Source: Nocardioides bruguierae (GTDB taxonomy: Bacteria; Actinomycetota; Actinomycetes; Propionibacteriales; Nocardioidaceae). From it: 64,000 bases of DNA. Each line of letters opens with the position of its first letter. The stretch's first letter is position 1. A program made the translations under genes and the position numbers. Positions 41,066-54,879 of this stretch are shown piece after piece. The DNA is taken from assembly GCF_023656415.1 (NCBI RefSeq), contig NZ_JAMOIL010000010.1, positions 1-64,000 of the forward strand. The letters are read 5' to 3'. The notes below the pieces were generated by a model. The model saw nothing but the letters and a program-made list of their open reading frames with translations, searched no databases and was not told where the DNA came from.

Positions 41066-41103
41066 GGCGGAACACACCGCCGCCCGACGCGGTTGGGGCG
41101 GGC

Positions 41104-42156
41104 GTGACCCACCACCACGGAGAGTTCAAGGTCCCGCAGGGCAAGCTGGTCGTCGTCGACCTGGAGGTCACCGACGAGGTGATCACCGAGGCCGTCGTCT
41201 CGGGCGACTTCTTCCTCGAGCCCGACGAGGCCCTCGGCGCCATGTCGGACGCCCTGCTCGGCCGGCCGGTCGACGTGCCGCTGGGCACCCTGGCGAGCGC
41301 CGTCGAGGAGGCCGCCGGCGACGCGGTGCTGGTCGGCTTCGACGCCCGCTCCCTCGGCATGGCCGTGCTGCGCGCCCTGGGCCGGAGCACGGCCTGGCAC
41401 GACCACGACTTCACGCTGCTGGAGGCCGGGCCGCTGCACCCGCCGGCCCAGATGGCGCTGGACGAGGTGCTGCTGCGCCAGGTCGCCTCCGGCGAGCGCG
41501 GCCCGACCCTGCGCGTGTGGGAGTGGGCCTCCAACGCGGTGATCATCGGCTCGTTCCAGTCGCTCTCGAACGAGGTCGACCTCGAGGCCGCCGCCCGGCA
41601 CGACGCCACGGTCGTGCGTCGGGTCTCCGGCGGCGGCGCCATGTTCGTGGAGCCGGGCAACACCATCACGTACTCGCTCTACGTGCCCGACACCCTGGTC
41701 GCGGGCCTGAGCTTCCTCGACTCCTACGCCTTCCTGGACGCCTGGGTCGTCCGCGCGCTGCGCGGCCTGGGCGTCGAGGCGTCCTACGTGCCGGTCAACG
41801 ACATCGTCTCGCCCGCCGGCAAGATCGGCGGCGCGGCGCAGAAGCGGGCCTCGGGCGCCGTGCTGCACCACGTCACCATGAGCTACGACATGGACGCCGA
41901 CGCGATGATGGACATCCTGCGCATCGGCCGCGAGAAGCTCTCCGACAAGGGGCACACCTCCTCGGGCAAGCGGGTCGACCCGATCCGCAGCCAGACCGGC
42001 CTCACGCGGGAGAAGGTCGTCGAGGCCATGCTCGACCACTTCGAGCAGTCCTACGGCCTGGGCCGCGAGGTCCTGGACGACGGCACGCGCGCTGCGTCCG
42101 AGGCGCTGGCGGCCGAGAAGTACGTCGGTGGGGAGTGGCTCGCCCGCGTCCCGTGA
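41104..42156 (+). CDS. lipoate--protein ligase family protein with N-terminal accessory domain
   Basis: 350 residues. The first 95 or so match the small accessory domain that normally sits at the C-terminus of LplA (GEFKVPQGKLVVVDLEV, SGDFFLEPDEAL). The catalytic BPL/LplA domain follows (PAQMALDEVLLRQVASG, RRVSGGGAMFVEPGNTITYS, PVNDIVSPAGKIGGAAQKR with the Lys that contacts lipoyl-AMP). It therefore carries the domains in permuted order and probably ligates lipoate or octanoate to E2/GcvH. GTG 41104 is the first plausible start. Confidence 0.88.
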   Translation: MTHHHGEFKVPQGKLVVVDLEVTDEVITEAVVSGDFFLEPDEALGAMSDALLGRPVDVPLGTLASAVEEAAGDAVLVGFDARSLGMAVLRALGRSTAWHDHDFTLLEAGPLHPPAQMALDEVLLRQVASGERGPTLRVWEWASNAVIIGSFQSLSNEVDLEAAARHDATVVRRVSGGGAMFVEPGNTITYSLYVPDTLVAGLSFLDSYAFLDAWVVRALRGLGVEASYVPVNDIVSPAGKIGGAAQKRASGAVLHHVTMSYDMDADAMMDILRIGREKLSDKGHTSSGKRVDPIRSQTGLTREKVVEAMLDHFEQSYGLGREVLDDGTRAASEALAAEKYVGGEWLARVP

Positions 42157-42217
42157 CCGACGCGGCGACATCGGCCTGCGGGACCCTGCACTGCGGGACG
42201 CGGGCGAGCCCTTCCTG

Positions 42218-42248
42218 GTCCCCTCCCCCGTTCCCGGGGTGAGGGGAC
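42218..42248. terminator. bidirectional hairpin terminator
   Basis: Arms GTCCCCTC (42218-42225) and GAGGGGAC (42241-42248), extended by CCCC/GGGG past a bulged T. It lies between the convergent ligase and kinase genes. Confidence 0.7.
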
Positions 42249-42249
42249 G

Positions 42250-42960
42250 TCAGCCGGCGAGCGGCGGCACGACCGCCACCGGCACGACGAGGTCCGCCCG
42301 AGGGGCGGTGTCGAGCACGAGCCGGGCGTTCGGCTCGTCGACGGAGGCCACCCACGCGACGGCCTCCTCGCGGGTCTTGCCGAACCGCACGTGCCGCTCC
42401 ACCAGCCGGGCGCGCCGCTCCTCGTCGGGCACGGCGCAGAACCACACCTCGTCCATGGCCGCGCGTGCCCGCTCCCAGCCGGCACCGTCGAGCAGCAGGT
42501 AGTTGCCCTCCGTCACCGCCAGACGGCACTCCGGCTGCACCGGCACGGCCCCGGCGATCGGCTGCTCCAGCTCCCGCTCGAAGGTGGGTGCGTAGACGAC
42601 CTCGCCCTCGCGCGGGGTCCGGATGCGCTCCAGCAACGCCGCGAAGCCGTGCGCGTCGAAGGTGTCCGGGGCGCCCTTGGCGTCGCGGCGCCCGATCCGC
42701 TCCAGCTCGACGTCGGCCAGGTGGTAGCCGTCCATCGGGACGTGCGCCACCCAGCCGTCCGTGCAGCCCTCGGGCACCGGCCCGGCTGCCAGCGCGCGCA
42801 CGATCTGCACGGCGAGGGTCGACTTGCCGGCGCCGGGGGTGCCGGCCACCCCGAGGACGTGGCGGCCCGGCCGCGCCACCAGCGCGCGGGCCCGGGCCAG
42901 CAGGTCCTCGAACGTGACGTCGTCGGTGGGCAGCGCGGTCTCGGCGGTCATGGGCGTCAT
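42250..42960 (-). CDS. P-loop nucleoside/nucleotide kinase family protein (FrcK-like)
   Basis: 236 residues. P-loop GTPGAGKST at 40-48, a substrate-binding VPMDGYHLADVEL loop and the EGNYLLLDGAGWERAR motif place it with the PRK/uridine kinase-like family that includes pantothenate kinase and FrcK. It is last in the sugar-transport operon, as frcK is in the Sinorhizobium frcBCAK operon, so a sugar or sugar-derived substrate is likely (inferred). ATG 42960 follows AGGAGG by four bases. Confidence 0.88.
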   Translation of the reverse strand: MTPMTAETALPTDDVTFEDLLARARALVARPGRHVLGVAGTPGAGKSTLAVQIVRALAAGPVPEGCTDGWVAHVPMDGYHLADVELERIGRRDAKGAPDTFDAHGFAALLERIRTPREGEVVYAPTFERELEQPIAGAVPVQPECRLAVTEGNYLLLDGAGWERARAAMDEVWFCAVPDEERRARLVERHVRFGKTREEAVAWVASVDEPNARLVLDTAPRADLVVPVAVVPPLAG

Positions 42961-42998
42961 GGTGCCTCCTGCCTGTCTCTGCGTGGCTCGCCCGCCGG

Positions 42999-43868
42999 TC
43001 AGGAGCGGTGCCCGGCCGCGGTCAGGCCGGCCGAGAGGAACTGGTGGGCGTGCCCGGCCAGGTCCGCGCCGTCGTCCCAGAGGTTGCGCCACACGGCGAG
43101 GTCGGCCGAGAGGGTCGGGTGGACCACGGCGGAGGAGAACGACTCGAAGGTGATCGGGCCGTCGTAGGAGATGTCCGCCAGCGCGTGGAAGAACCCGGTG
43201 AAGTCCAGGTGCCCGGACCCGAGGTAGCCGCGGTGGTTCTCGCCGATGTGGACGTAGCCGAGGCGGTCCCCGACCTCCAGGACGGGCCGCACGAGGTCGT
43301 CCTCCTCGATGTTCATGTGGTACGTGTCCAGGTGGATGACCACGTTGTCGGCGGCGATGTCGTCGGCCAGCGCGAGCGCCTGGCGAGCGGTGTTGACCAC
43401 GTTGGTCTCGTACCGGTTGCACACCTCGAGGCCGAGGGTGACGCCGCGCGTGGCGGCCTCGGCCGCCAGGTCCTTGAGCACGCGGACGACGTTGGCCCGA
43501 CCGACCTCGCTCAGCGGAGCGCCGTACTTGCCGAGCGCCGAGTACAGGGCGCCGGTGAGGTAGCGGCCGCCGAGGCCCGAGACGACGTCGAGGGACTCGT
43601 GCAGCAGCGCCTCGCCGCGCGCCACGACGGCCGGGTCGTCGCTGGAGACGTCCGCGTCGAAGGCGAGGCCGCGCGAGCAGGCCACCTGCAGGCCGTGCTG
43701 CTCGAGCAGGGCGCGGGTGCCGGGCACGTCGAGCTGCTGCAGGTCGTGCAGGCTCAGCTCGAGCAGGTCGAAGCCGGCGGCCGCGGTCTGCTTGACCGCG
43801 AGCTCCACGGACGCGGGGGCGCTGTCGCCGACCCAGACGAGGGCGTGGACGCCGAGGGGGCTGGACAT
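42999..43868 (-). CDS. sugar phosphate isomerase/epimerase family protein (tagatose/psicose 3-epimerase-like)
   Basis: A 289-residue xylose-isomerase-like TIM barrel. Metal ligands of the ketohexose 3-epimerase type are visible: Glu148 (LEVCNRYETN), Asp181 (HLDTYHMN), His207 (VHIGENHRG) and Glu242 (TFESFSS). The family epimerises ketoses such as tagatose or psicose at C3, which suits an uptake operon for a keto-sugar. ATG 43868 follows GAGGAGAAC. It lies between kinase and ABC ATPase genes on the minus strand. Confidence 0.88.
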   Translation of the reverse strand: MSSPLGVHALVWVGDSAPASVELAVKQTAAAGFDLLELSLHDLQQLDVPGTRALLEQHGLQVACSRGLAFDADVSSDDPAVVARGEALLHESLDVVSGLGGRYLTGALYSALGKYGAPLSEVGRANVVRVLKDLAAEAATRGVTLGLEVCNRYETNVVNTARQALALADDIAADNVVIHLDTYHMNIEEDDLVRPVLEVGDRLGYVHIGENHRGYLGSGHLDFTGFFHALADISYDGPITFESFSSAVVHPTLSADLAVWRNLWDDGADLAGHAHQFLSAGLTAAGHRS

Positions 43869-43915
43869 GGCGTTCTCCTCAGAAGGGTGGTGTCGGGGTG
43901 GTGGGGCGTGGCCGG

Positions 43916-44701
43916 TCAGGCGGCCTGGGCACCGGGGATGAGCGCGACGATCTCCTCGCCGGTGGTCTCGGCGGTGCGACGTCCGGCGACGCACCGGCCG
44001 GCGCGCATGACCCAGACCTGGTCCGAGAGGCGCATGACCTGGGCGAAGTTGTGGCTGATGAGCAGCACCGCGTGACCCTCGGACTTCAGCCGCAGGATCA
44101 GCTCCTCGACGCGTGCGGTCTCCTGCACACCGAGCGCGGCGGTCGGCTCGTCCATGATCACGAGACCGCTGGAGAAGCCGGCGGCGCGGCAGATGGAGAC
44201 CGCCTGGCGCTGGCCACCCGAGAGGCGGCGCACCTTGGAGGTCACCTCGGGGACGTTCACGGACAGCCCGGAGACCATCCGCTGCGCCTCCCTCTTCATC
44301 GCGCGTCGGTCGAGCAGGCGCAGCGGACCCACACCCCTGGTCAGCTCGCGGTTGAGGAAGAGGTTCTGCCAGACCGTGAGGTCCTCGACGAGGGCCAGGT
44401 TCTGGTGGACGGTCTCGATGCCGGCGCGGCGCGCCTCCTCGGGCGTCTTGAAGGACACCTGGCTGCCGTCCAGCTCGATGGTGCCGGAGTCGGGCGTGTG
44501 CACGCCGCAGATGCAGCGGACCAGGGTGGACTTGCCGGCGCCGTTGTCGCCGACGATCGCGGTGACCTCACCGCGGCGCAGCTCGACGTCGACGTCCTTG
44601 AGCGCCTGGACGTTGCCGAAGGACAGGGAGACGCCGGAGGCGCGGACGAGGACGTCGGCGGGGGCGGTGGGGCTGCTGGGGTCGATGGTCGTCTGGGTCA
44701 C
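43916..44701 (-). CDS. sugar ABC transporter ATP-binding protein (FrcA-like, single cassette)
   Basis: 261 residues with one ABC domain: Walker A GDNGAGKST at 51-59, Q-loop HQNLALVED, signature LSGGQRQAVSICRA, Walker B LVIMDEPTAAL, and H-loop LISHNFAQV. RbsA-type importers usually have two fused cassettes; FrcA-type fructose systems have a single one, so this gene helps place the transporter. GTG 44701 overlaps the permease stop (GTGA), indicating coupling. Confidence 0.93.
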   Translation of the reverse strand: MTQTTIDPSSPTAPADVLVRASGVSLSFGNVQALKDVDVELRRGEVTAIVGDNGAGKSTLVRCICGVHTPDSGTIELDGSQVSFKTPEEARRAGIETVHQNLALVEDLTVWQNLFLNRELTRGVGPLRLLDRRAMKREAQRMVSGLSVNVPEVTSKVRRLSGGQRQAVSICRAAGFSSGLVIMDEPTAALGVQETARVEELILRLKSEGHAVLLISHNFAQVMRLSDQVWVMRAGRCVAGRRTAETTGEEIVALIPGAQAA

Positions 44702-45702
44702 TTCTGGTACCTCGAGAGGAAGGCGGCGGCCACGACGACGCAGCCGACGGCGACGGGCTGGTAGTACTGCGAGACCCCGACGAGGGTGAGGCCGTTGGTC
44801 AGTCCGGTCAGCAGCAGGGCCCCGAAGAACGGGCCCACGATGGTGGCGCGGCCGCCGACGAGCGCCACGCCACCGAGGACGACGGCAGCGACGCAGTTGA
44901 GCAGGAACTGGGTGTTCGCCGCGGGCTCGTCAGCACCGATCCGGGCGACGAGGAGCACGCCCGCGATGCCCGCGCAGCTCCCGGAGATCGTGTAGACGGC
45001 CGTCTTGACCCGGGCCACGCTGATGCCGGTGGCGGTGGCGGCCTCCTCCGAGCCGCCGGCGGCGAGCACGTGGGTGCCGAAGCGGGTGTGGAACAGGACG
45101 ACGTGGGCCAGCACGGCGACGAGCACGGCGACGAGGACCGGGTAGCCGATGATCCACACCGAGCCGGTGGCGAAGCGGAGCAGGAAGCGGTCGATGATCG
45201 TCGTCGGCTGCCCGTCGGAGACCACGAGCGCCAGGCCCGAGGCCACCGAGAACCCGCCGAGGGTCACGATGAAGTCGGTGATCCGACCGCGTCCGATGAA
45301 CAGCCCCTGCACCAGCCCGAAGCCGGTCCCGGCCGCCACGGAGGCGAGCATGGCGACGCCGACCGGGGCTCCGGCGGCGAAGACGGTGCCGAAGATGATG
45401 GCCGAGAAGGTCATGGTGGAGGCCACGGCCAGGTCGATGCCGCCGGTCGCGACCGTGAAGGTCTGGCCGGTGGCCAGGACGATCAGGATCGCCGCCGCGG
45501 CGAGCATCGCCTCGATGTTGCCGAGGCTGAGGAACGTGGTGTTGAGCGACTGGAAGATCAGCACCATCACCAGGAAGCCGAGGGGCGCCGCCCACTCCGC
45601 CCAGGAGCCGGGGTCCTTGAGCCGGGTGCGCCAGCCGGTCGTGGGTGGCGAGGGCTGGGTGCTCTCGTCGGTCGGGGACGCTGCGTGCGTCACGGTGGTC
45701 AT
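44698..45702 (-). CDS. sugar ABC transporter permease (FrcC/RbsC type)
   Basis: 334 residues, with about ten membrane helices and the BPD_transp_2 signature (ILIVLATGQTFTVATGGIDLAV, GRGRITDFIVTLGG, FNTRFG-type here FHTRFGTHVLAAGGSEEAATATGI). It forms the channel of a ribose/fructose-class importer. ATG 45702 follows AAGGAGCG. It lies 145 bases downstream of the binding-protein gene, with a hairpin in between. Confidence 0.93.
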   Translation of the reverse strand: MTTVTHAASPTDESTQPSPPTTGWRTRLKDPGSWAEWAAPLGFLVMVLIFQSLNTTFLSLGNIEAMLAAAAILIVLATGQTFTVATGGIDLAVASTMTFSAIIFGTVFAAGAPVGVAMLASVAAGTGFGLVQGLFIGRGRITDFIVTLGGFSVASGLALVVSDGQPTTIIDRFLLRFATGSVWIIGYPVLVAVLVAVLAHVVLFHTRFGTHVLAAGGSEEAATATGISVARVKTAVYTISGSCAGIAGVLLVARIGADEPAANTQFLLNCVAAVVLGGVALVGGRATIVGPFFGALLLTGLTNGLTLVGVSQYYQPVAVGCVVVAAAFLSRYQK

Positions 45703-45806
45703 GCGCGCTCCTTGCTCTGCGGGACGGCCGGGGGACGGAGGTGGGACGGACGGGGTGGGGCCGGCGAGGTGACGGGTGGTCACCCGGGGGTCGGGGCGGG
45801 ATCGCC

Positions 45807-45844
45807 ACCCCGACCGCCGGTCCGTCCCCGTGAGGGGTCGGGGT
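45807..45844 (-). terminator. intercistronic hairpin after the binding-protein gene
   Basis: Arms ACCCCGACC (45807-45815) and GGTCGGGGT (45836-45844), three bases past the binding-protein stop. It probably attenuates read-through or protects the 3' end so that the binding protein is made in excess. Confidence 0.5.
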
Positions 45845-45847
45845 CGC

Positions 45848-46843
45848 TCAGTCGAGCGGGTTGTCGAACTCCTCGAACGGGGCGGGGAAGGCGCCCAGGG
45901 CCTCCTCGGCCACGTCGGGGGTCACGAGGGCGACGGGGGCCTCGATGCTCTCGGGGACGTCGTCACCCGCGACCAGCGCCTCGCAGGCCTGCATCCCGAG
46001 CTGACCGATGGCGTAGGGGTACTGCGCGACGGTGGCGTCGAGCGTGCCGTCGGCCACGGCCTGCAGCGCCTCCTCGTTGCCGTCGAGGCCGATGACGGCG
46101 ATCTCGTCGGTCTTCCCCGCGTTCGCCACGGCGCGCGCGGCGCCGAGTGCCATGTCGTCGTTGGCCGCGAAGATGCCGACCAGGTCGGGGTTCGCCGTCA
46201 TCAGGTCGGTGGCCGCGGTGAGGGCCTGCTGGCGGTTCCAGTCCGCCGAGACGACGGGCAGCAGGTCGAGGGTGTCGCCGGCGGCGTTCTCGAAGCCGGT
46301 CAGCCGGTCCTCCGAGGTGATGTTGCCGGCGATGCCGCCGATCATGCCGATGGAGCCGGAGCCCACGAGCTCGACCATGTGCTCGCCGGCGAGCTCGCCC
46401 GCGGAGACGTTGTCCGTGCCGATGTAGGTGGCGGCCTCGACCCCCGCCGCCTCGGCGGCGTCGCTGTCGAGGGGCTGGTCGATGTTGACCACCGGCACGT
46501 CGATGCCGGCGAGCCCCTGGACCAGGTTGTTGCCGCTGATGGGGTTCACGACGAAGCAGCCGAAGTCCTGCTGCGCCAGGGCGGTCAGGCGCTCGGCCTG
46601 GCCGGTGGTGTCCGAGATGTCCTGCGCCGCCTGCACCTCCACGGAGATGCCGTCCGCGTCGGCCTCGTCCGTCAGGCCGTCACGCATGGCCTGGAAGAAC
46701 GGGTTGTCCAGGCCCTTGATGACGGCAGCCACGCTCTCGGAGTCGGAGCCCGAGCCGGCGTCGGAGTCGCTGCCTCACGCGGTGAGCAGCAGGGACGGGA
46801 CGGCCAGCGCGGCCACGAGGTAGCGGGTACGGGTCGGGATCAT
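45848..46843 (-). pseudogene. sugar ABC transporter substrate-binding protein (FrcB-like), interrupted by TGA at the lipobox cysteine
   Basis: The frame opens at ATG 46843 behind a strong AAGGAGG site and encodes a lipoprotein signal (MIPTRTRYLVAALAVPSLLLTA). The next codon, where the lipobox cysteine belongs, is TGA (46775-46777). The frame then continues uninterrupted (GSDSDAGSGSDSESVAAVIKG) through a complete periplasmic-binding-protein-1 type domain (VIKGLDNPFFQAMRDG, NPISGNNLVQGLAG, FAANDDMALGAARAV) to 45848; 332 codons in all. A GTG at 46732 could restart translation but would give a cytosolic protein. It could be a nonsense mutation, strain-specific inactivation or a sequencing error. 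Confidence 0.85.
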
Positions 46844-46870
46844 GTCGCCTCCTTTTTGACTTGTGATGCG

Positions 46871-46899
46871 CATTAAGTGGGCTCGATCACACCCGTCAA
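46871..46899 (-). promoter_or_regulatory. promoter of the sugar ABC operon with flanking inverted repeat
   Basis: Minus strand: -35 TTGACG (46899-46894), 17 bases, -10 TTAATG (46876-46871), about 20 bases before the AAGGAGG site. TGTGAT (46862-46867) and ATCACA (46886-46891) form an inverted repeat around the -10, a candidate site for the divergent ROK repressor. Confidence 0.6.
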
Positions 46900-46915
46900 G
46901 ACCCAAAATGTCCGC

Positions 46916-46945
46916 TTGAATCTGAACTCCTGTGCCTAATAGGGT
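46916..46945 (+). promoter_or_regulatory. promoter of the ROK regulator gene
   Basis: -35 TTGAAT (46916-46921), 18 bases, -10 TAGGGT (46940-46945), 29 bases before GTG 46975. Confidence 0.45.
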
Positions 46946-46974
46946 GACCCGCACGACAGACGAAGGAGGCGGAC

Positions 46975-48153
46975 GTGCCTGACGTGTCAGAGGGCGCCAC
47001 CGAGCTGCTGCGCCTCGTGGCCAGCAGTCGCAGCGAGACCCGCGCGAGCATCGCCCGGGTCACCGGATGGGCCCGCAACACCGTCAACGCGCGCCTCGAC
47101 GAGCTGCTCGACCTCGGCCTGGTCACCGACACCGGTGCCGTGGGCGGCTCGCGGGGACGGCCCGCCGCCCGCTTCTCCTTCGACGCCTCGGCCGGCAGCC
47201 TCCTGATCGCCGACGTCGGCGCCTCGGCCGCCCGCTTCGCGCACGTGGACCTGCGGGGTGCCGTGCTCTCCCAGCAGGAGGTGTCGCTCGACATCACGGC
47301 CGGCCCCGAGCCCGTGCTCGACGCCGTCGTCCGCGGGCTGGAGGCACTGCCGACCCGCGACGACCTCCCCGCCTGGGCCCTGGGGGTCTCCCTGCCCGGC
47401 CCGATCGAGCAGCCGGCCGGCCGCGTGGTCAGCCCGCCGATCATGACCGGGTGGGACGGCATGAACGTCCCGGAGGTGCTGGGCCCGCGGCTGCGGGTGC
47501 CCGTGCTGGTCGAGAACGACGTGAACGCCATGGCGTGGGGCGAGGTGGTCTCCACCGGACGCATGCGCGACCTGTTGTTCGTCAAGGTCGGCACCGGCGT
47601 CGGCGCCGGCCTCGTCCTCAACGGCGCACTCCTGTCCGGTGCCCGCGGCGCCGCCGGCGACCTCGGGCACACCCACGTGGGCGTCGGCGACGGCGCGGTC
47701 CAGCCCCTGTGCCGGTGCGGCAAGCGCGGCTGCGTCGAGGCCTACGCCGGGGGCTGGGCGATCGCCCGCGACCTGAACGACGCCGGCGTCGACGCCGCCG
47801 GGGCGGCTGACGTCGTCGCCCGGCTCCAGGCGGGCGACCCCGTGGCCGTGGACCTCGTCCGCGAGGCGGGGCGGGTGCTGGGCGCGGGCATCGCCGCCGC
47901 GGTCAGCCTGGTCAACCCGGCCGAGGTGGTCATCGGCGGGCAGCTCAGCCACGCCGGTGAGCACCTGCTCATGGGCATCCGCGAGAAGGTGGCCGCCTAC
48001 GCGCTCCCCCTCGCCACGCAGGAACTGGTCATCCGCACCGCGTCCCGGCCGCACGACGTCGGGCTCGTCGGGCTCGTCGACCGGATGACCCGCTGGGCGC
48101 TCGAGCACGCCCATCTCTCCGAGATCCTCCGCCGGGTCGGCGTGGCCTCCTGA
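46975..48153 (+). CDS. ROK family transcriptional regulator
   Basis: 392 residues. An N-terminal winged helix (TELLRLVASSRSETRASIARVTGWARNTVNARLDELLDLGLV) is followed by a ROK sugar-binding domain with END loop ENDVNA (180-185), GTGVGAGL, and the zinc motif CRCGKRGC (Cys246, 248, 253). It is probably the repressor of the divergent sugar ABC operon, like FrcR, released by sugar. GTG 46975 follows GAAGGAGGC. Confidence 0.93.
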   Translation: MPDVSEGATELLRLVASSRSETRASIARVTGWARNTVNARLDELLDLGLVTDTGAVGGSRGRPAARFSFDASAGSLLIADVGASAARFAHVDLRGAVLSQQEVSLDITAGPEPVLDAVVRGLEALPTRDDLPAWALGVSLPGPIEQPAGRVVSPPIMTGWDGMNVPEVLGPRLRVPVLVENDVNAMAWGEVVSTGRMRDLLFVKVGTGVGAGLVLNGALLSGARGAAGDLGHTHVGVGDGAVQPLCRCGKRGCVEAYAGGWAIARDLNDAGVDAAGAADVVARLQAGDPVAVDLVREAGRVLGAGIAAAVSLVNPAEVVIGGQLSHAGEHLLMGIREKVAAYALPLATQELVIRTASRPHDVGLVGLVDRMTRWALEHAHLSEILRRVGVAS

Positions 48154-48458
48154 CCCTCCGCCTCGCCCGGCACGGCGACCGGCGTGTCGCCGCCGTCCCG
48201 CCGCCCACGCGGGGCACGCTCGTGGTCGTGCCGGCGGTGGCAGGCGCACGGGCCGCCAAGACGCGGATCGGTGCGGACGGTCCCGCCTGACCGGTCCGAC
48301 CGCCTCGTCCGGGCGGTGTGGACGACGTACCTCGTCCGGCCCGGCCGCACCGGACGGACGGTCGGCACGACCCTGGTCAACCGGTCACCGGGCTCCTAGG
48401 CTCCGGTCACGCCGCCCGCGCACGTTCCCCCTCCGGGCGGTCGTGCCAGGAGGCTGCC
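48154..48458. other. 305-base intergenic region between ROK and GntR genes
   Basis: Contains a small hairpin after the ROK gene (GGCGAC/GTCGCC, 48174-48191), the gntR promoter at 48374-48402 and GGTCA direct repeats (48376-48380, 48384-48388). I see no convincing gene. Confidence 0.6.
48374..48402 (+). promoter_or_regulatory. promoter of the GntR regulator gene
   Basis: -35 TGGTCA (48374-48379), 17 bases, -10 TAGGCT (48397-48402). The GGTCA direct repeats within it may be an autoregulatory site. Confidence 0.5.
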
Positions 48459-49235
48459 GTGCCGGACCCGTCCATCGACCGTTCCTCCCCCGTGCCCTAC
48501 TACCGACAGCTGGCCGAGGCCCTGGCCGCGCAGGTGGCGGCCGGCGACCTGGGGCCGGGCGACCGCCTCCCCAGCGAGTCCGACCTGGGCGGGCGCTACT
48601 CGCTCTCCCGCGCGACCGTGCGGCAGGCGCTCGCGCACCTGGAGGAGCAGGGGGTGGCCCGCCGGGTCGCCGGCCGCGGGGTGTTCGTGCGCGGCGACGA
48701 GCCCGACGCACCGACCGGCTGGCCCGTCACCGACCCCGCCGCCGTCCTGGAGGCTGCCTACGGGCCCGAGCACCCCCTGGTCGAGCTGGAGGTCCGGACC
48801 CGCGGCGAGGCCGTGCTGCCGCCCTGGGCCACCCGGTTGCTGGAGGTGCCGGACGGCACCCGCGGCCACGAGCTGGGCCGGCTGCACCTGCTCGACGGCA
48901 CACCCGCGCTGCTCAGCACCCACCTCCAGCCGCCGCCCGTCGACGCCGTGGTCGCGGTGGCCCTGGACGCCGGCGCTGCCGCCGGACGGGACGACCCGCT
49001 CGCCGTGGCGCTGGCTGCCGGCGGCCACGCACCGGTCGGCACCCGACGCTCCCTGCACGCGATGAGCCCCCGGGGAGCCGTGGCCGAGGCCCTGGAGGCC
49101 GGGCCGGCCACCCCCGTCCTGCGCATCCGCGCCGTCTCCTGGTCCCGCACGGGGGCCCTGGTGGACGCCGCCGAGAGCTGGGTCCGCACCGACGTCGCGC
49201 CCCTGGACCTCGAGGTGGGCAGCCCCCGCGGGTGA
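48459..49235 (+). CDS. GntR family transcriptional regulator with UTRA domain
   Basis: 258 residues. GntR winged helix (VPYYRQLAEALAAQVAAGDLGPGDRLPSESDLGGRYSLSRATVRQALAHLEEQGVARRVAGRGVFV, about 10-75) plus a UTRA/HutC-type ligand domain (about 95-255). GTG 48459 has AGGAGG five bases before it. It lies 306 bases after the ROK gene and may also act on the sugar locus; the effector is unknown. Confidence 0.92.
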   Translation: MPDPSIDRSSPVPYYRQLAEALAAQVAAGDLGPGDRLPSESDLGGRYSLSRATVRQALAHLEEQGVARRVAGRGVFVRGDEPDAPTGWPVTDPAAVLEAAYGPEHPLVELEVRTRGEAVLPPWATRLLEVPDGTRGHELGRLHLLDGTPALLSTHLQPPPVDAVVAVALDAGAAAGRDDPLAVALAAGGHAPVGTRRSLHAMSPRGAVAEALEAGPATPVLRIRAVSWSRTGALVDAAESWVRTDVAPLDLEVGSPRG

Positions 49236-49270
49236 CCCTCGCCGGCCGGAGGCGGTCGTAGGTTCGAGGC

Positions 49271-49672
49271 ATGCTCCGCACCCTCGCCCGGATCGTCCTG
49301 GGCTCGCTGATGACCGCCGCCGGCACCGCGCACCTCACGGTGCTGCGCGAGGAGTTCCAGGCACAAGTGCCCGACTGGGTGCCGGTCGACGACGACGCGG
49401 TGGTGCTCGGCTCCGGGGTCGTGGAGATCGCGCTGGGCTCGGCGTTCGTGCTGCTCCCCCGGCACCAGCGGCTCGTCGGTGGGCTGCTGGCCGCGTTCTA
49501 CGTCGCGATCTTCCCGGGCAACGTCGCCCAGTACGTGGAGCAGACCGACGCGTTCGGCCTCGACACCGACCGGGCCCGGTTCCTGCGCCTGTTCTTCCAG
49601 CCGGTGCTCGTCGCCTGGGCGCTGTGGGCCGGCCGCACCCTGACCAGGCGGAAGCCCGCCGACCGGGACTGA
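49271..49672 (+). CDS. DoxX-like small membrane protein
   Basis: 133 residues with four predicted helices (IVLGSLMTAAGTAHL, VLGSGVVEIALGSAFVLL, LVGGLLAAFYVAIFPG, LFFQPVLVAWALWA), DoxX-like. It lacks the CGCF motif of MauE. The function is unknown. ATG 49271 lies 6 bases after TAGGTT, suggesting a leaderless transcript. It converges on the DUF1501 gene with only 4 bases between them. Confidence 0.8.
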   Translation: MLRTLARIVLGSLMTAAGTAHLTVLREEFQAQVPDWVPVDDDAVVLGSGVVEIALGSAFVLLPRHQRLVGGLLAAFYVAIFPGNVAQYVEQTDAFGLDTDRARFLRLFFQPVLVAWALWAGRTLTRRKPADRD

Positions 49673-49676
49673 GCGC

Positions 49677-50973
49677 TCACGCCTGCCGCAGGAACCCCAG
49701 CGGCTCGTAGTGCAGGCCGGGGAACACGTCGGCGACCGCGGTGGCGCTGAACCGCTTCTGCACGATCTCCCCCAGCACCTGGCGGTAGTCGGTGGTGACG
49801 GTGAGGTCGGAGTCCACGCCCATCGACAGGCCCGGCCAGGTGCCGTAGTGCTGCCCGCCGCGCACCCCGGCGCCGGCCACCATCATCACGTTGCCGTAGC
49901 CGTGGTCGAGGCCCTGGTTCTGGTTCTCCTCGACCCGGCGGCCGAACTCGCTGAGCGCCACCAGGGTCACCTTGTGCCGCTGGTCGCCGAGGTCGGAGAA
50001 GAAGGTCGCGAGCGCCGAGGCCAGCTCGTCGACGTTGCGGATCATCTGGCCCCACTCGAGGGTCCCGAGCCGGCTGTGCATGTCCCAGGCGCCCTGGTCG
50101 AGGGTGATGACGTCCGTGCCGATGTCGGCGCGGATGAGGCGAGCCGCGTCGGCCAGCGCCGCCCCGAGGTCGCCCTGCCGGGTAGTCGGCGGTCCGCGAG
50201 CGCTGCCGCCGGGCGGGCGCGAAGTCGTCCACGGCGCCGAAGGTCTGCTGCATCGCGCGTCCGAGCACCCCCTTCTCGCCCTTCCACATCGTCCGCAGCC
50301 CCCGCTCGCGCTGGCGGGCGCGCGCGGCGTCCCACGACGGCCCGGGGATCTCGATGTCGTCGATCGCCTGGGTGACGAAGGTGGGCTGGCGGCCGAGCAG
50401 GGAGGTGGGAGCCGCCCCGGAGATGAGGCCCACGCCCTCGGTGGCGCTGCGGACGCTGTCGGTGCCCACGAGCCGGTTGAGCCACCCCTCGCGCCGGGCC
50501 GAGCCCGGGGCGGCGTCCTCCAGCTCCTCCATGGCGGCGAAGTGGGAGCGGTTCACGCTCGGCAGACCGGCGGCTTGCACGAACGCCAGCTCGCCGCCGT
50601 TCCACAGCGGCAGGAGGGGCTTCATCCGGGGGTGGAGCCCGAAGAACCCGTCCTTGGCGAGCAGCTCGGTGCGGGGCACGGCGATCCGCGGCCGCGCCTC
50701 GTAGTAGACGTCGTCGCCGTAGGGCACGACGACGGACATGCCGTCCATGGCCCCGCGCAGCGAGAGGACGACCAGCACCGACTCCGCGCTGGCGGCGGCC
50801 GACGGGGACGCGGTGAGCACGGCGGAGCCGAAGGTCGCGGTGGTGCCGGCGGCGACCAGCCCGCCGCGCAGCAGGCCGCGGCGGCTGAGGGCGGCCATGC
50901 CGGCCATCTCCGCGCAGCAGGACGGGGTCGTGGGCGCGAGCGTGGGGGCGGACGGGGCGGGGCGGGTGGTCAT
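49677..50973 (-). pseudogene. DUF1501 family exported protein, frameshifted
   Basis: A twin-arginine-type N-terminus (LSRRGLLRGGLVAAGTTATFGSAVL) leads into a DUF1501 domain (VLSLRGAMDGMSVVVPYGD, FGLHPRMKPLLPLWNGGELAFVQAAG). The frame is lost near 50178-50182 after ADYP; the rest of the family sequence (GDLGAALADAARLIRADIGTDV, TLDQGAWDMHSRLG, ALSEFGRRVEEN) continues in another frame to 49677. Removing one base restores 431 residues. It is paired with the DUF1800 gene. The change is a mutation or a sequencing error. Confidence 0.85.
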
Positions 50974-51033
50974 GCGGACTCCTGGCGGGGTCTGTGCAGG
51001 TCGACGGGGCGCGCGGCGGGCAGCGACGCAGCA

Positions 51034-52515
51034 TCAGCGAGAGAGGTGGGTGGGGCTGTCGAGCAGCGTGGTGAGCACGAAGCCGAGGCGGTGGACGATG
51101 ACCGGGTGCTCGGCGTGGACCACGTCCGAGGCGGAGACGTCCGCGGCCCGGCAGCAGGCCACGACGACCCTCCGCGTGGCCGGGACCCCGAGCATCGTCC
51201 GGGAGAGGTGGTCGACGAAGGCACCGAACCGCATGCGCCGCTGCGGCAGCCAGGCGGTCGGCTTGCGGTAGACGATGCCGCGGCTGGGCCAGTACGAACC
51301 GGCCATGAGCCAGTGGTTGCGAGACCCGCCCAGCATCCGCGAGGGCGTCGCCCACGCGTCGTCGGTGATCGGGGCACCGTCGGGCCGGGGCCAGTCGAAG
51401 GGCTTGAGACCGAGCCGCTGGCACTGGGTCGGGAGGGTGTGGGCGGCCCAGCCGTTGCCGGTGCCGCGGGCCTTCTCGCCGGGCTCGGTGACCCGGACCC
51501 CGAGGGCCCGGTGCGTGGCCACCACGTCCTCGCCCGCGTCGCGCACCTTCTGGCCGCGCGCGTCGCGGAACTCCTCGGAGCGGACGAGCGCCCGCAGCAC
51601 CGGGCGGATGTCGGTGTCGTGCTCGAGGTAGATCCGTGCCAGACGCCGGACGAGGGTCTGCGGCGCCGCGTCCGAGACGAGCTTGACGACGAGCTTGCGA
51701 GCGATCCGCTCGGCGGTCGCCGGGTGGTGCGCCAGGTACCGCACGAGGCTGCGGGCCGCGGCCCGCCCGTCGGCGTCGGCGTTGGCGTGCTTCCAGCCCA
51801 TGACGTTCACCGGACCCACCGCGTGGTCGGCCGTGCTGTAGGAGAAGGCGAAGGTGCCCCAGAGGTCCACGTGGTACCCGGTGAGGACCTGGGCGGCCTG
51901 CTTGACGTCGTCCTCGGTGTACTCGCCGCGGCCCACCGTGTGCAGCTCGAGCAGCTCGCGGGCGAGGTTCTCGTTCGGGTGCTGCCAGGTGGAGATGCCG
52001 GCGTCCAGGGCCAGCAGCATCGCGGGGTGCAGCACGGCGGCCTGCAGCAGCCGGTCGACGCGACCCAGGGCGTGCTTGCGGATGACGTCGCCGTAGCGCT
52101 TGCGCCAGGTGAAGGCGGCGTCGGCGCCGACCGGCACGTGCAGGTGGTTCTCCCAGAGCTCCGTCATCAGCTCCAGCACCTGGCGCTGGGAGTAGGTGCG
52201 GCGCAGGATCACGTAGGACTGGTAGTCGTTCATGACCTCCCAGTTCTCCTCCACACCGGACTTCTTGCGCTGGTAGAGGTCCTCCGGGGTGCGGGAGAGG
52301 CTGGGGAACCAGGTCAGGTAGGCGCCCGTGCCGCGGTCCTTGACCTTGCGGGGCGTGAGCTGTCGCTCGAACCAGCGCAGGCCGCCACCGGCGTTGCGCA
52401 CCTGGCGGGCGAGGGCGGGCGTGTGGCCGTAGGACAGGCGGTCGACGATGTGCCGGTCGCCCGCGAGCAGCACGCGGGTCGTGGCGCGGCCCGCGGGGGT
52501 CGTGCGGTCTGACAT
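51034..52515 (-). CDS. DUF1800 family protein
   Basis: 493 residues of the DUF1800 family: RHIVDRLSYGHTPALARQVRNAGG, the MTELWENHLHVPV motif, QHPNENLARELLELHTVGRGEYTEDDVKQAAQVLTGY (the family hallmark), and ARKLVVKLVSDAA. No signal peptide is clear. It forms a conserved pair with the exported DUF1501 protein downstream (61 bases); the function of the pair is unknown. ATG 52515 follows GGAGAG. Confidence 0.9.
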   Translation of the reverse strand: MSDRTTPAGRATTRVLLAGDRHIVDRLSYGHTPALARQVRNAGGGLRWFERQLTPRKVKDRGTGAYLTWFPSLSRTPEDLYQRKKSGVEENWEVMNDYQSYVILRRTYSQRQVLELMTELWENHLHVPVGADAAFTWRKRYGDVIRKHALGRVDRLLQAAVLHPAMLLALDAGISTWQHPNENLARELLELHTVGRGEYTEDDVKQAAQVLTGYHVDLWGTFAFSYSTADHAVGPVNVMGWKHANADADGRAAARSLVRYLAHHPATAERIARKLVVKLVSDAAPQTLVRRLARIYLEHDTDIRPVLRALVRSEEFRDARGQKVRDAGEDVVATHRALGVRVTEPGEKARGTGNGWAAHTLPTQCQRLGLKPFDWPRPDGAPITDDAWATPSRMLGGSRNHWLMAGSYWPSRGIVYRKPTAWLPQRRMRFGAFVDHLSRTMLGVPATRRVVVACCRAADVSASDVVHAEHPVIVHRLGFVLTTLLDSPTHLSR

Positions 52516-53134
52516 GGATGGCTCTCCAAGGTGTGGGACGGGCAGCGGCCGTCCTCCCTCCCCAGGGACGGGCGGCCCGCGCGTCTCTTCCTCACCTGCT
52601 TCGGAGCCGCGACGCCGGGCCTTGAGCCCACCGACGGAATCTTTACGAGTTCGCTGTGAGACGCCGCTCACGCCTCCGCGGCCCACGGGGGCGTCTCGTC
52701 GCCCTGCCGGCATCGACACCGGCCCGTGCCTCTCGGCTGGTGCACGGACGAACTCCGACTCCGGACCTCGTCCCTCGCCTTCCGCGCGCAGAAGGGCCTG
52801 ACCCGCGGCGACGCAGGCGGACGAGGCGGGCCACTGCCCGGCACGACGGCTACACGAGTGCTCCCGGGCCACGACTCGACGACCTTCTTCTCCGCCGCGG
52901 ACCCGCGCCCCTGACTTACGGAACGGGCCCCTGTCCCCTCATCGGACGCGGCCGTCCTGTCCCCGGGGAGCACCCGCCGCGGGACGGGCACCTGAGCCTC
53001 GCCTCGTCATCAGTTCATCCACGAAACACCTACATTCGCAGTACAACCGTCCCCTGACACCGCGCGATCTGACATCGTCACCCTGACGGACGTTCCGTCG
53101 CCCCGCACCAGCCCTGACCTGCACGAGGACGTCG
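52516..53134. other. 619-base intergenic region, no convincing gene
   Basis: Lies between divergent DUF1800 and secreted-protein genes. Small open frames here (for example 52726-52914, plus) have no ribosome-binding site or coding bias. An AT-richer stretch near 53010-53045 with TACATT (53031-53036) probably holds the promoter of the downstream gene. I see no hairpin or known RNA. Confidence 0.5.
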
Positions 53135-54430
53135 ATGACCCGCACCCGCACCCTGGCCGCCACCGCACTGACGGGAACGACCGTGGCCGCACTCGCCGGA
53201 GCCCTGGCCCTCGCCGGCCTCTCCGGCCCCGCCACCGCGGGCTCGGTCGCCTCGCGCAGCGCCGTGGACGACGACAAGGTCTGCGTGGACTACCTCGCCA
53301 CCACCGGCAGCGGCTCCGGCAAGATCGACGTGACCGGCAGCGTCACCTCGCTGACCGTGAGCGCCCCCGAGGGCTACGTCATCGACTACTACTGCGTGAA
53401 GTCCGGGTCCTCGAGCCAGGGCGACGGCCCGCGGGTCGTCGAGACCACGGACCCGCACCCGGCCAGCGTGACGCTGACCTACGAGACCACGCTGAAGAAC
53501 GGCAAGACGGTCTTCAAGGACCTGAGCCACTACTCGCTCCACTACGTGCCGGCCGCTGGTACGACGCCGTCGGAGGAGCCGTCCGGGACGCCGTCCGAGG
53601 AGCCCACCGAGACCCCCTCGGAGACCCCCACCGAGACGCCGTCCGAGGAGCCCACCGAGACCCCCTCGGAGACCCCCACCGAGACACCGTCCGAGGAGCC
53701 CACCGAGACGCCGTCCGAGACCCCGTCCGAGCCGGGCCCGGTGTTCGCCACCAACCCGCCGGCCACGACCGGTGACGGCTCGTTCGACTGGAACTGGCGC
53801 TACCCGGACCCGACCTGCACCGCGCTGACGGTCCCGTACCCGTCCAACTTCCCGGTCGACCAGACGACGGACATCAACGTGCGTGTCCGCTTCCCCGACG
53901 GCAGCACCCGGACGTTCAACTGGCACGCGAACGAGGGCGTCCAGCACACGATGAGCTTCCAGTTCGCCCAGCACCCCGACTGGCCGGCCGGCGTCACCGA
54001 GTACCAGGTCGAGTGGACCCAGGTCGGCGGCTCGAACTACCACTTCGGCGAGTCCTTCCACAACGCCGCGATCGCCAACCCGGTCGACTGCGTGGTCACC
54101 GACGGTGAGGTCGGCCCCCGCGCCGTCACCTCGCTGAAGGGCTTCTCCAGCGAGCGGGTCGTCGTGGCCGCAGGCCGCCGGGCCGCCTCCGACCGGGTGC
54201 TCGCCGACGCGCTCTACTCCGAGCCGCTCACCCTGCAGCGTCGCACCGCCCGCGGCTGGCGCACCGTCAGCACCGTGGCCCGCAACGACGGCCGCGCCGT
54301 CGTCCGCTACCCGCGTCTGCGCAAGGCCGGCCAGACCGTCCGGTTCCGCCTGCACGCGGCGGGCAGCGGTCTCGCCACGGGAGAGACGAGCAAGGTCCTG
54401 AAGGTGCGCGTGGTGCGCTCGCGCCGCTGA
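53135..54430 (+). CDS. secreted protein with Pro/Glu/Thr repeat linker, hypothetical
   Basis: 431 residues. Signal peptide (AALAGALALAGLSGPATA) followed by a beta-rich N-domain with two Cys (KVCVDYLA, DYYCVKSG). A PSEEPTETPSETPTET linker repeated three times (about 145-200) joins a second beta domain (WRYPDPTCTALTVPYPSNFPVDQTTDINVRVRFPDG) and a basic C-domain ending VRSRR. I recognise no family. It looks like a cell-surface protein with a stalk. ATG 53135 follows ACGAGGAC. A palindromic terminator follows. Confidence 0.75.
   Translation: MTRTRTLAATALTGTTVAALAGALALAGLSGPATAGSVASRSAVDDDKVCVDYLATTGSGSGKIDVTGSVTSLTVSAPEGYVIDYYCVKSGSSSQGDGPRVVETTDPHPASVTLTYETTLKNGKTVFKDLSHYSLHYVPAAGTTPSEEPSGTPSEEPTETPSETPTETPSEEPTETPSETPTETPSEEPTETPSETPSEPGPVFATNPPATTGDGSFDWNWRYPDPTCTALTVPYPSNFPVDQTTDINVRVRFPDGSTRTFNWHANEGVQHTMSFQFAQHPDWPAGVTEYQVEWTQVGGSNYHFGESFHNAAIANPVDCVVTDGEVGPRAVTSLKGFSSERVVVAAGRRAASDRVLADALYSEPLTLQRRTARGWRTVSTVARNDGRAVVRYPRLRKAGQTVRFRLHAAGSGLATGETSKVLKVRVVRSRR
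53567..53735 (+). repeat. 48-base coding tandem repeat
   Basis: Two full copies and one partial copy of a 48-base unit encoding PSEEPTETPSETPTET, inside the secreted-protein gene; a likely surface stalk. Confidence 0.8.
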
Positions 54431-54456
54431 CGCTCGACGGCCCACCGGCCGCACGC

Positions 54457-54490
54457 ACGAAGGGCCCCGCCGATCGGCGGGGCCCTTCGT
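54457..54490. terminator. palindromic bidirectional terminator
   Basis: Perfect 34-base palindrome (17-base arms; outer ACGAAGGGCC) between the convergent secreted-protein and GroES-like genes. Confidence 0.85.
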
Positions 54491-54549
54491 CGTGACTGGG
54501 TGGAGCAGAAGTGGATGGGTGGTCGACCAGGTGGGTGGCCGATCTGTGA

Positions 54550-54879
54550 TCAGAGGTAGAGGCCGGTGCTCTCGTCGCCGACGCGCTCCGCGGCCACCGC
54601 GTGCACGTCGCGCTCGCGCATGACGACGTAGGTCTCGCCGTGCACCTCGACCTCGCCGCGGTCGTCGGGGTCGAAGAGCACCCGGTCGCCGGCCTGCACG
54701 GCCCGGGCCTGCGGCCCGACGGCCACGACCTTGGCCCAAGCGAGCCGCTTGGCGCCCATGGCCGCGGTCGCGGGGATGACGATGCCGCCGGAGGACCGGC
54801 GCTCGCCGGCCTCGGCGTCGATCTCCACGAGCACCCGGTCGTGGAGCATCTTGATCGGGGTCTTGTCGCTCACGCCCAC
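54550..54879 (-). CDS. GroES family co-chaperonin (paralogue)
   Basis: 109 residues. GroES core: KMLHDRVLVEIDAEAGERRSSGGIVIPATAAMGAKRLAWAKVVAVGPQARAVQAGDRVLFDPDDRGEVEVHGETYVVMRERDV in layout, with the mobile loop RSSGGIVIP. No groEL is adjacent, so this is probably a second co-chaperonin distinct from the main groES. GTG 54879 (or 54873) is six bases after the upstream DUF3618 stop, indicating an operon. Confidence 0.88.
   Translation of the reverse strand: MGVSDKTPIKMLHDRVLVEIDAEAGERRSSGGIVIPATAAMGAKRLAWAKVVAVGPQARAVQAGDRVLFDPDDRGEVEVHGETYVVMRERDVHAVAAERVGDESTGLYL

Follow-up and report, generated by a model that had tools for sequence, protein, structure and literature searches.

A stop codon at the lipobox of a sugar-binding lipoprotein gene

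What has happened to a transporter gene whose only internal stop codon falls exactly on the cysteine of its lipobox? The question is raised by a minus-strand gene in the 64,000-nucleotide stretch of Nocardioides bruguierae DNA analysed here (contig NZ_JAMOIL010000010.1, positions 1-64,000; hereafter the window, G+C 73.5%). The original prediction had described a TGA at the lipobox cysteine, behind a good ribosome-binding site and a lipoprotein signal and ahead of a frame intact down to 45848, and all of this description was borne out. Minus-strand positions 46777-46775 read TGA, in frame with both the ATG at 46843 and the terminal TGA at 45850-45848, such that the frame consists of MIPTRTRYLVAALAVPSLLLTA, the TGA and then GSDSDAGSGSDSESVAAVIKGLDNPFFQ onward; this TGA is the sole internal stop among 332 codons (both stops included). 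A ribosome-binding site, AAGGAGG, lies four bases 5' of the ATG (46848-46854, minus strand) and is followed by the 22 codons of the lipoprotein signal peptide (46778-46843, minus strand), which ends in LLLTA and resembles MFTTRTRIVAAVIAVPALALTA of a relative whose protein is 87% identical. The open remainder of the frame (45848-46774, minus strand; 308 codons plus stop) encodes an allose/ribose-type sugar-binding protein with a nearly complete PF13407 domain (161 bits, profile positions 3-257 of 258).

The solved structures nearest to this protein are allose- and ribose-binding proteins, the D-allose-binding protein 1gub being among the best (E 2.8e-42). AlsB (NF007254) is the best NCBIfam model but the score, 188.5 bits, falls short of the cut-off (335) and the protein is not AlsB by that model, and all 20 of the NCBIfam families listed for it score below their cut-offs, such that no equivalog among these defines its substrate. 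The transported sugar is probably fructose-, allose- or ribose-like.

That the stop should fall on the lipobox cysteine is striking, yet not improbable. The frame contains 49 codons that lie one base from a stop, the cysteine and 48 others, and seven of these, the cysteine among them, are within the first 60 codons. With 49 nonsense-prone codons available, of which the cysteine is one, no special cause is needed to explain where the stop lies.

The surrounding operon

The binding-protein gene is followed on the minus strand by four open genes. These encode an ABC permease of 334 aa (44698-45702; PF02653, 119.4 bits), an ABC ATPase of 261 aa with a single ATP-binding domain (43916-44701; PF00005, 112.6 bits), a xylose-isomerase-like TIM barrel of the sugar epimerase/isomerase type (42999-43868; PF01261, 129.7 bits) and a nucleoside/nucleotide-kinase-family protein in an FrcK-like position (42250-42960; NF006743, 299.9 bits, over the cut-off of 227). 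For the last two genes we picked the start codons ourselves, and the profile scans were run on 42999-43994 and 42250-43002, respectively. On the plus strand, a divergent gene for a ROK-family regulator is also open (46975-48153; PF00480, 184.6 bits). With PF13407, PF02653 and an ABC ATPase in one gene cluster, the locus has the composition of a Frc/Als/Rbs-type sugar ABC transporter.

In Sinorhizobium meliloti, FrcA is a single-domain protein and FrcR is of the ROK type. The fructose locus of that organism is described as frcB and frcCAK with a divergent frcRS (PMC10433430), and the window resembles this description in its order of binding protein, permease, ABC protein and kinase with a divergent regulator. 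It differs in having an extra TIM-barrel epimerase-like gene between the ATPase and kinase genes and in the interruption of its binding-protein gene; the likeness is one of gene order.

Orthologues and selection

The original prediction had named a comparison of the same codon in close relatives as a check. We found TGC at the lipobox position in 13 of 13 orthologues read, the 87%-identical one included, although three of them (L128-L130) are near-identical to one another and the 13 are therefore not independent witnesses. Ten, at 55-87% identity, came from the 215 genomes of the window's genus, where a search gave 16 non-self matches and six at 32-40% (L133-L138) were left out; 201 of the 215 (a count that includes the window's own genome) had no match at 1e-30. 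The other three, at 58-59% identity, were from Herbiconiux solani, Demequina pelophila and Cellulomonas chitinilytica and were taken from the best 80 of at least 592 matching stretches in a search of named genomes, the remaining 77, at 36% or less, being left out. A plasmid search returned 12 partially matching records, none covering 80% of the query. An in-frame TGA where relatives carry a sense codon is what is expected of a young pseudogene, and the sharing of the stop that would mark conserved programmed read-through was seen in none of the 13 orthologues read.

The closest orthologue lies in a genome (G149) that is colinear with the window over 41068-48142 at 80-82% DNA identity. In a two-species comparison with G149, which is a weak clock, the binding-protein gene had the lowest Ka/Ks of seven genes, 0.217 (Ka 0.078, Ks 0.36, 296 codons), followed by the kinase (0.238), permease (0.247), lipoate ligase (0.302), ATPase (0.328), epimerase-like (0.346) and ROK (0.352) genes. 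Two of 103 otherwise invariant columns were changed in the window protein alone, and 0 of 101 in the G149 protein alone. These figures suggest that normal selection acted on the frame up to a very recent time, if it does not act on it still. As the gene shows no decay, the TGA is either very recent or a base error; a young mutation and a base error give the same Ka/Ks and column counts, such that these figures have no power to separate the two.

Loss of the binding protein by a recent nonsense mutation

We favor, as the probable explanation, a recent single-base nonsense mutation that turned the lipobox cysteine codon of a Frc/Als-type sugar-binding lipoprotein gene into TGA. Our reasoning for this is that the TGA is present in the sequence, the orthologues read uniformly carry TGC, a genome-wide control for stops in ABC_tran matches was clean (see below) and RF2 is full length and open. 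Since the gene has not yet decayed, the change would be very young. The species is sampled by one genome, and the TGA is possibly a strain or laboratory variant.

Under this explanation, ribosomes would begin at ATG 46843, build the 22-residue signal peptide and terminate, and the secreted, lipid-anchored binding protein would not be produced. Restart at an in-frame GTG (46732) would yield at most a cytoplasmic protein without a signal. An ABC importer whose other parts are open would thus be deprived of its substrate receptor, and sugar uptake would be lost or strongly reduced. The suggestion in the original prediction that the rest of the operon stays open is correct for the reading frames, but the roughly 925 untranslated bases after the TGA could reduce expression of the downstream permease and ATPase genes by polarity.

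There is precedent for genes of this kind. Belinky et al. (2021; PMC7918605) describe bacterial genes with an in-frame stop, carbohydrate transport and metabolism being among the most abundant categories. The present frame resembles those of their set in combining purifying selection with a single nonsense codon, whereas their stops were filtered for occurrence in at least two species and the stop studied here is in a single genome. The case fits the ordinary picture that these authors give (PMC7918605). If real, it would be a clean natural case in which a one-base change deprives a transporter of its receptor and leaves all its other parts open, and it would be useful for following early gene loss.

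It is also conceivable, but in our view very improbable, that the stop serves a function, either by leaving a 22-codon minigene for the signal peptide only, from which a trimmed hydrophobic peptide of the cAD1/pPplA pheromone type is released, or by a regulated, stress-dependent UGA leak that sets a low receptor level. The position of the stop is the sole support for the pheromone reading: of such a precursor only the signal peptide is seen, and its predicted truncated form stops right where cleavage would naturally occur. In some Gram-positive bacteria peptide pheromones are described as deriving from lipoprotein signals, and in the construct reported in PMC4379056 the pheromone was still secreted after the lipoprotein part had been truncated. 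The stop engineered there lay 50 residues past the cleavage site, however, and the cysteine was therefore retained (PMC4379056). Here no cysteine remains at that position, which would deprive signal peptidase II of a substrate.

Recoding, read-through or a wrong base

The original prediction had offered recent inactivation, read-through or recoding, and error as options. The first and the last both fit the absence of decay and the uniform TGC; read-through and recoding are weakened by what follows. Translation of the gene as a recoded lipoprotein, through selenocysteine or a reassigned UGA, would suit a UGA at a cysteine position in RNA that can form hairpins, and there are indeed matches, all below cut-off, to the models for SelB and tRNA-Sec. 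We nevertheless give this reading almost no credence. SelA had no match in the genome; none of seven SelB matches was above cut-off, and the best (200.7 bits, the cut-off being 242.25) falls within a frame of 405 codons, which is as long as EF-Tu and probably encodes it. At the four tRNA-Sec matches, all under cut-off, ARAGORN reads Ser, Gly, Ser and Arg. A UCA anticodon was absent among 49 tRNA matches, ARAGORN giving anticodons for 48 and the 49th being a degenerate match of 34 bits with a UGU loop by eye. The fold around the TGA was unremarkable (z -1.34), 22 of 200 shuffled sequences doing as well or better, and an Rfam scan of 45800-47100 gave one match only, a narK element below threshold (E 0.12). 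A lipobox filter run on 464 kb of the genome found 13 TGC, one TGT and one TGA, the stop studied here (6, 1 and 1 with a stricter first filter), and on a further 80 kb it found four TGC, no TGA and one TAG that was not lipoprotein-like by eye; no second lipobox TGA was thus found in these 544 kb, in counts that are samples rather than a census because the filter is strict and several of its hits are non-lipoproteins. We rejected a selenoprotein (SelA without a match, SelB and tRNA-Sec below cut-off only) and likewise a UGA-reassigned code (no UCA-anticodon tRNA, no tRNA-Trp with a 4-bp stem and no stop in 98 ABC_tran matches), and the lipobox TGA does not extend the genetic code. The degenerate 34-bit copy is tRNA-Thr-like and adjoins tRNA-Thr(UGU) on contig C23 of the same genome (5812-5884); it resembles a decayed tRNA gene.

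Leaky read-through, in which a near-cognate tRNA-Trp or tRNA-Cys would decode the UGA at a low rate and give some full-length binding protein, we regard as unlikely, though less so than recoding. Insertion of cysteine alone would yield a lipoprotein; tryptophan would leave an uncleaved signal anchor. The pattern of purifying selection in the frame is in its favor, as are reports that TGA is a leaky stop and that in-frame stops under purifying selection are widespread in bacteria (PMC7918605), but that argument is built on shared stops and the present stop was in 0 of 13 orthologues. Furthermore, the anticodon stem of the only tRNA-Trp(CCA) is 5 bp long and, by eye, this tRNA has A9 and G24; it is therefore without the features to which PMC13092985 ascribes increased reading of UGA, and the open RF2 also speaks against leakage. 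A more serious competitor, which we hold to be possible but less likely than a genuine mutation, is that the cysteine codon is intact in the organism and was miscalled as TGA in a draft assembly of 75 contigs (99.08% complete). The absence of decay is equally expected from a base error, TGC in every one of the orthologues read agrees with it, and a second lesion, a frameshift in a DUF1501 gene, lies 3.4 kb away on the same contig. On the other hand, the draft looks clean elsewhere. None of 98 ABC_tran matches genome-wide (150 of 172 candidates scored) had an internal stop, from which gross sequence quality seems good, although this control is blind to stops within signal peptides, and a frame scan of 464 kb flagged 10 switches with only one real-looking frameshift. 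Wrong substitutions are infrequent where short-read contigs are well covered, which would apply here if the draft is of that kind. Overall, the locus is best described either as a recent nonsense interruption of an ordinary sort or as an error of assembly, and in the latter case it would matter only as an annotation warning.

The neighboring DUF1501 lesion

The one switch that on visual inspection resembled a genuine frameshift is that in the DUF1501 gene (49677-50973, minus strand), which adjoins a DUF1800 gene (51034-52506) and is frameshifted near 50175. The nine flagged switches outside the window resembled ordinary gene borders by eye, and none was flagged in 93 kb of G149; the script missed the lipobox TGA because it is too close to the gene start. 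In relatives, the two halves of the DUF1501 gene share one frame in 8 of 8 loci compared (11 loci fetched). The frameshift may point weakly to locally poor assembly around the TGA, or its proximity may be chance. Three more DUF1501-like copies elsewhere in the genome are open over the matched part, and loss of the frameshifted one may therefore be tolerated. For window positions 48200-54500, a stretch that includes this gene, blastn (E 1e-20) found no match in the operon-bearing 93 kb of G149; similarity returns at window position 54550, which in G149 lies about 17 kb away.
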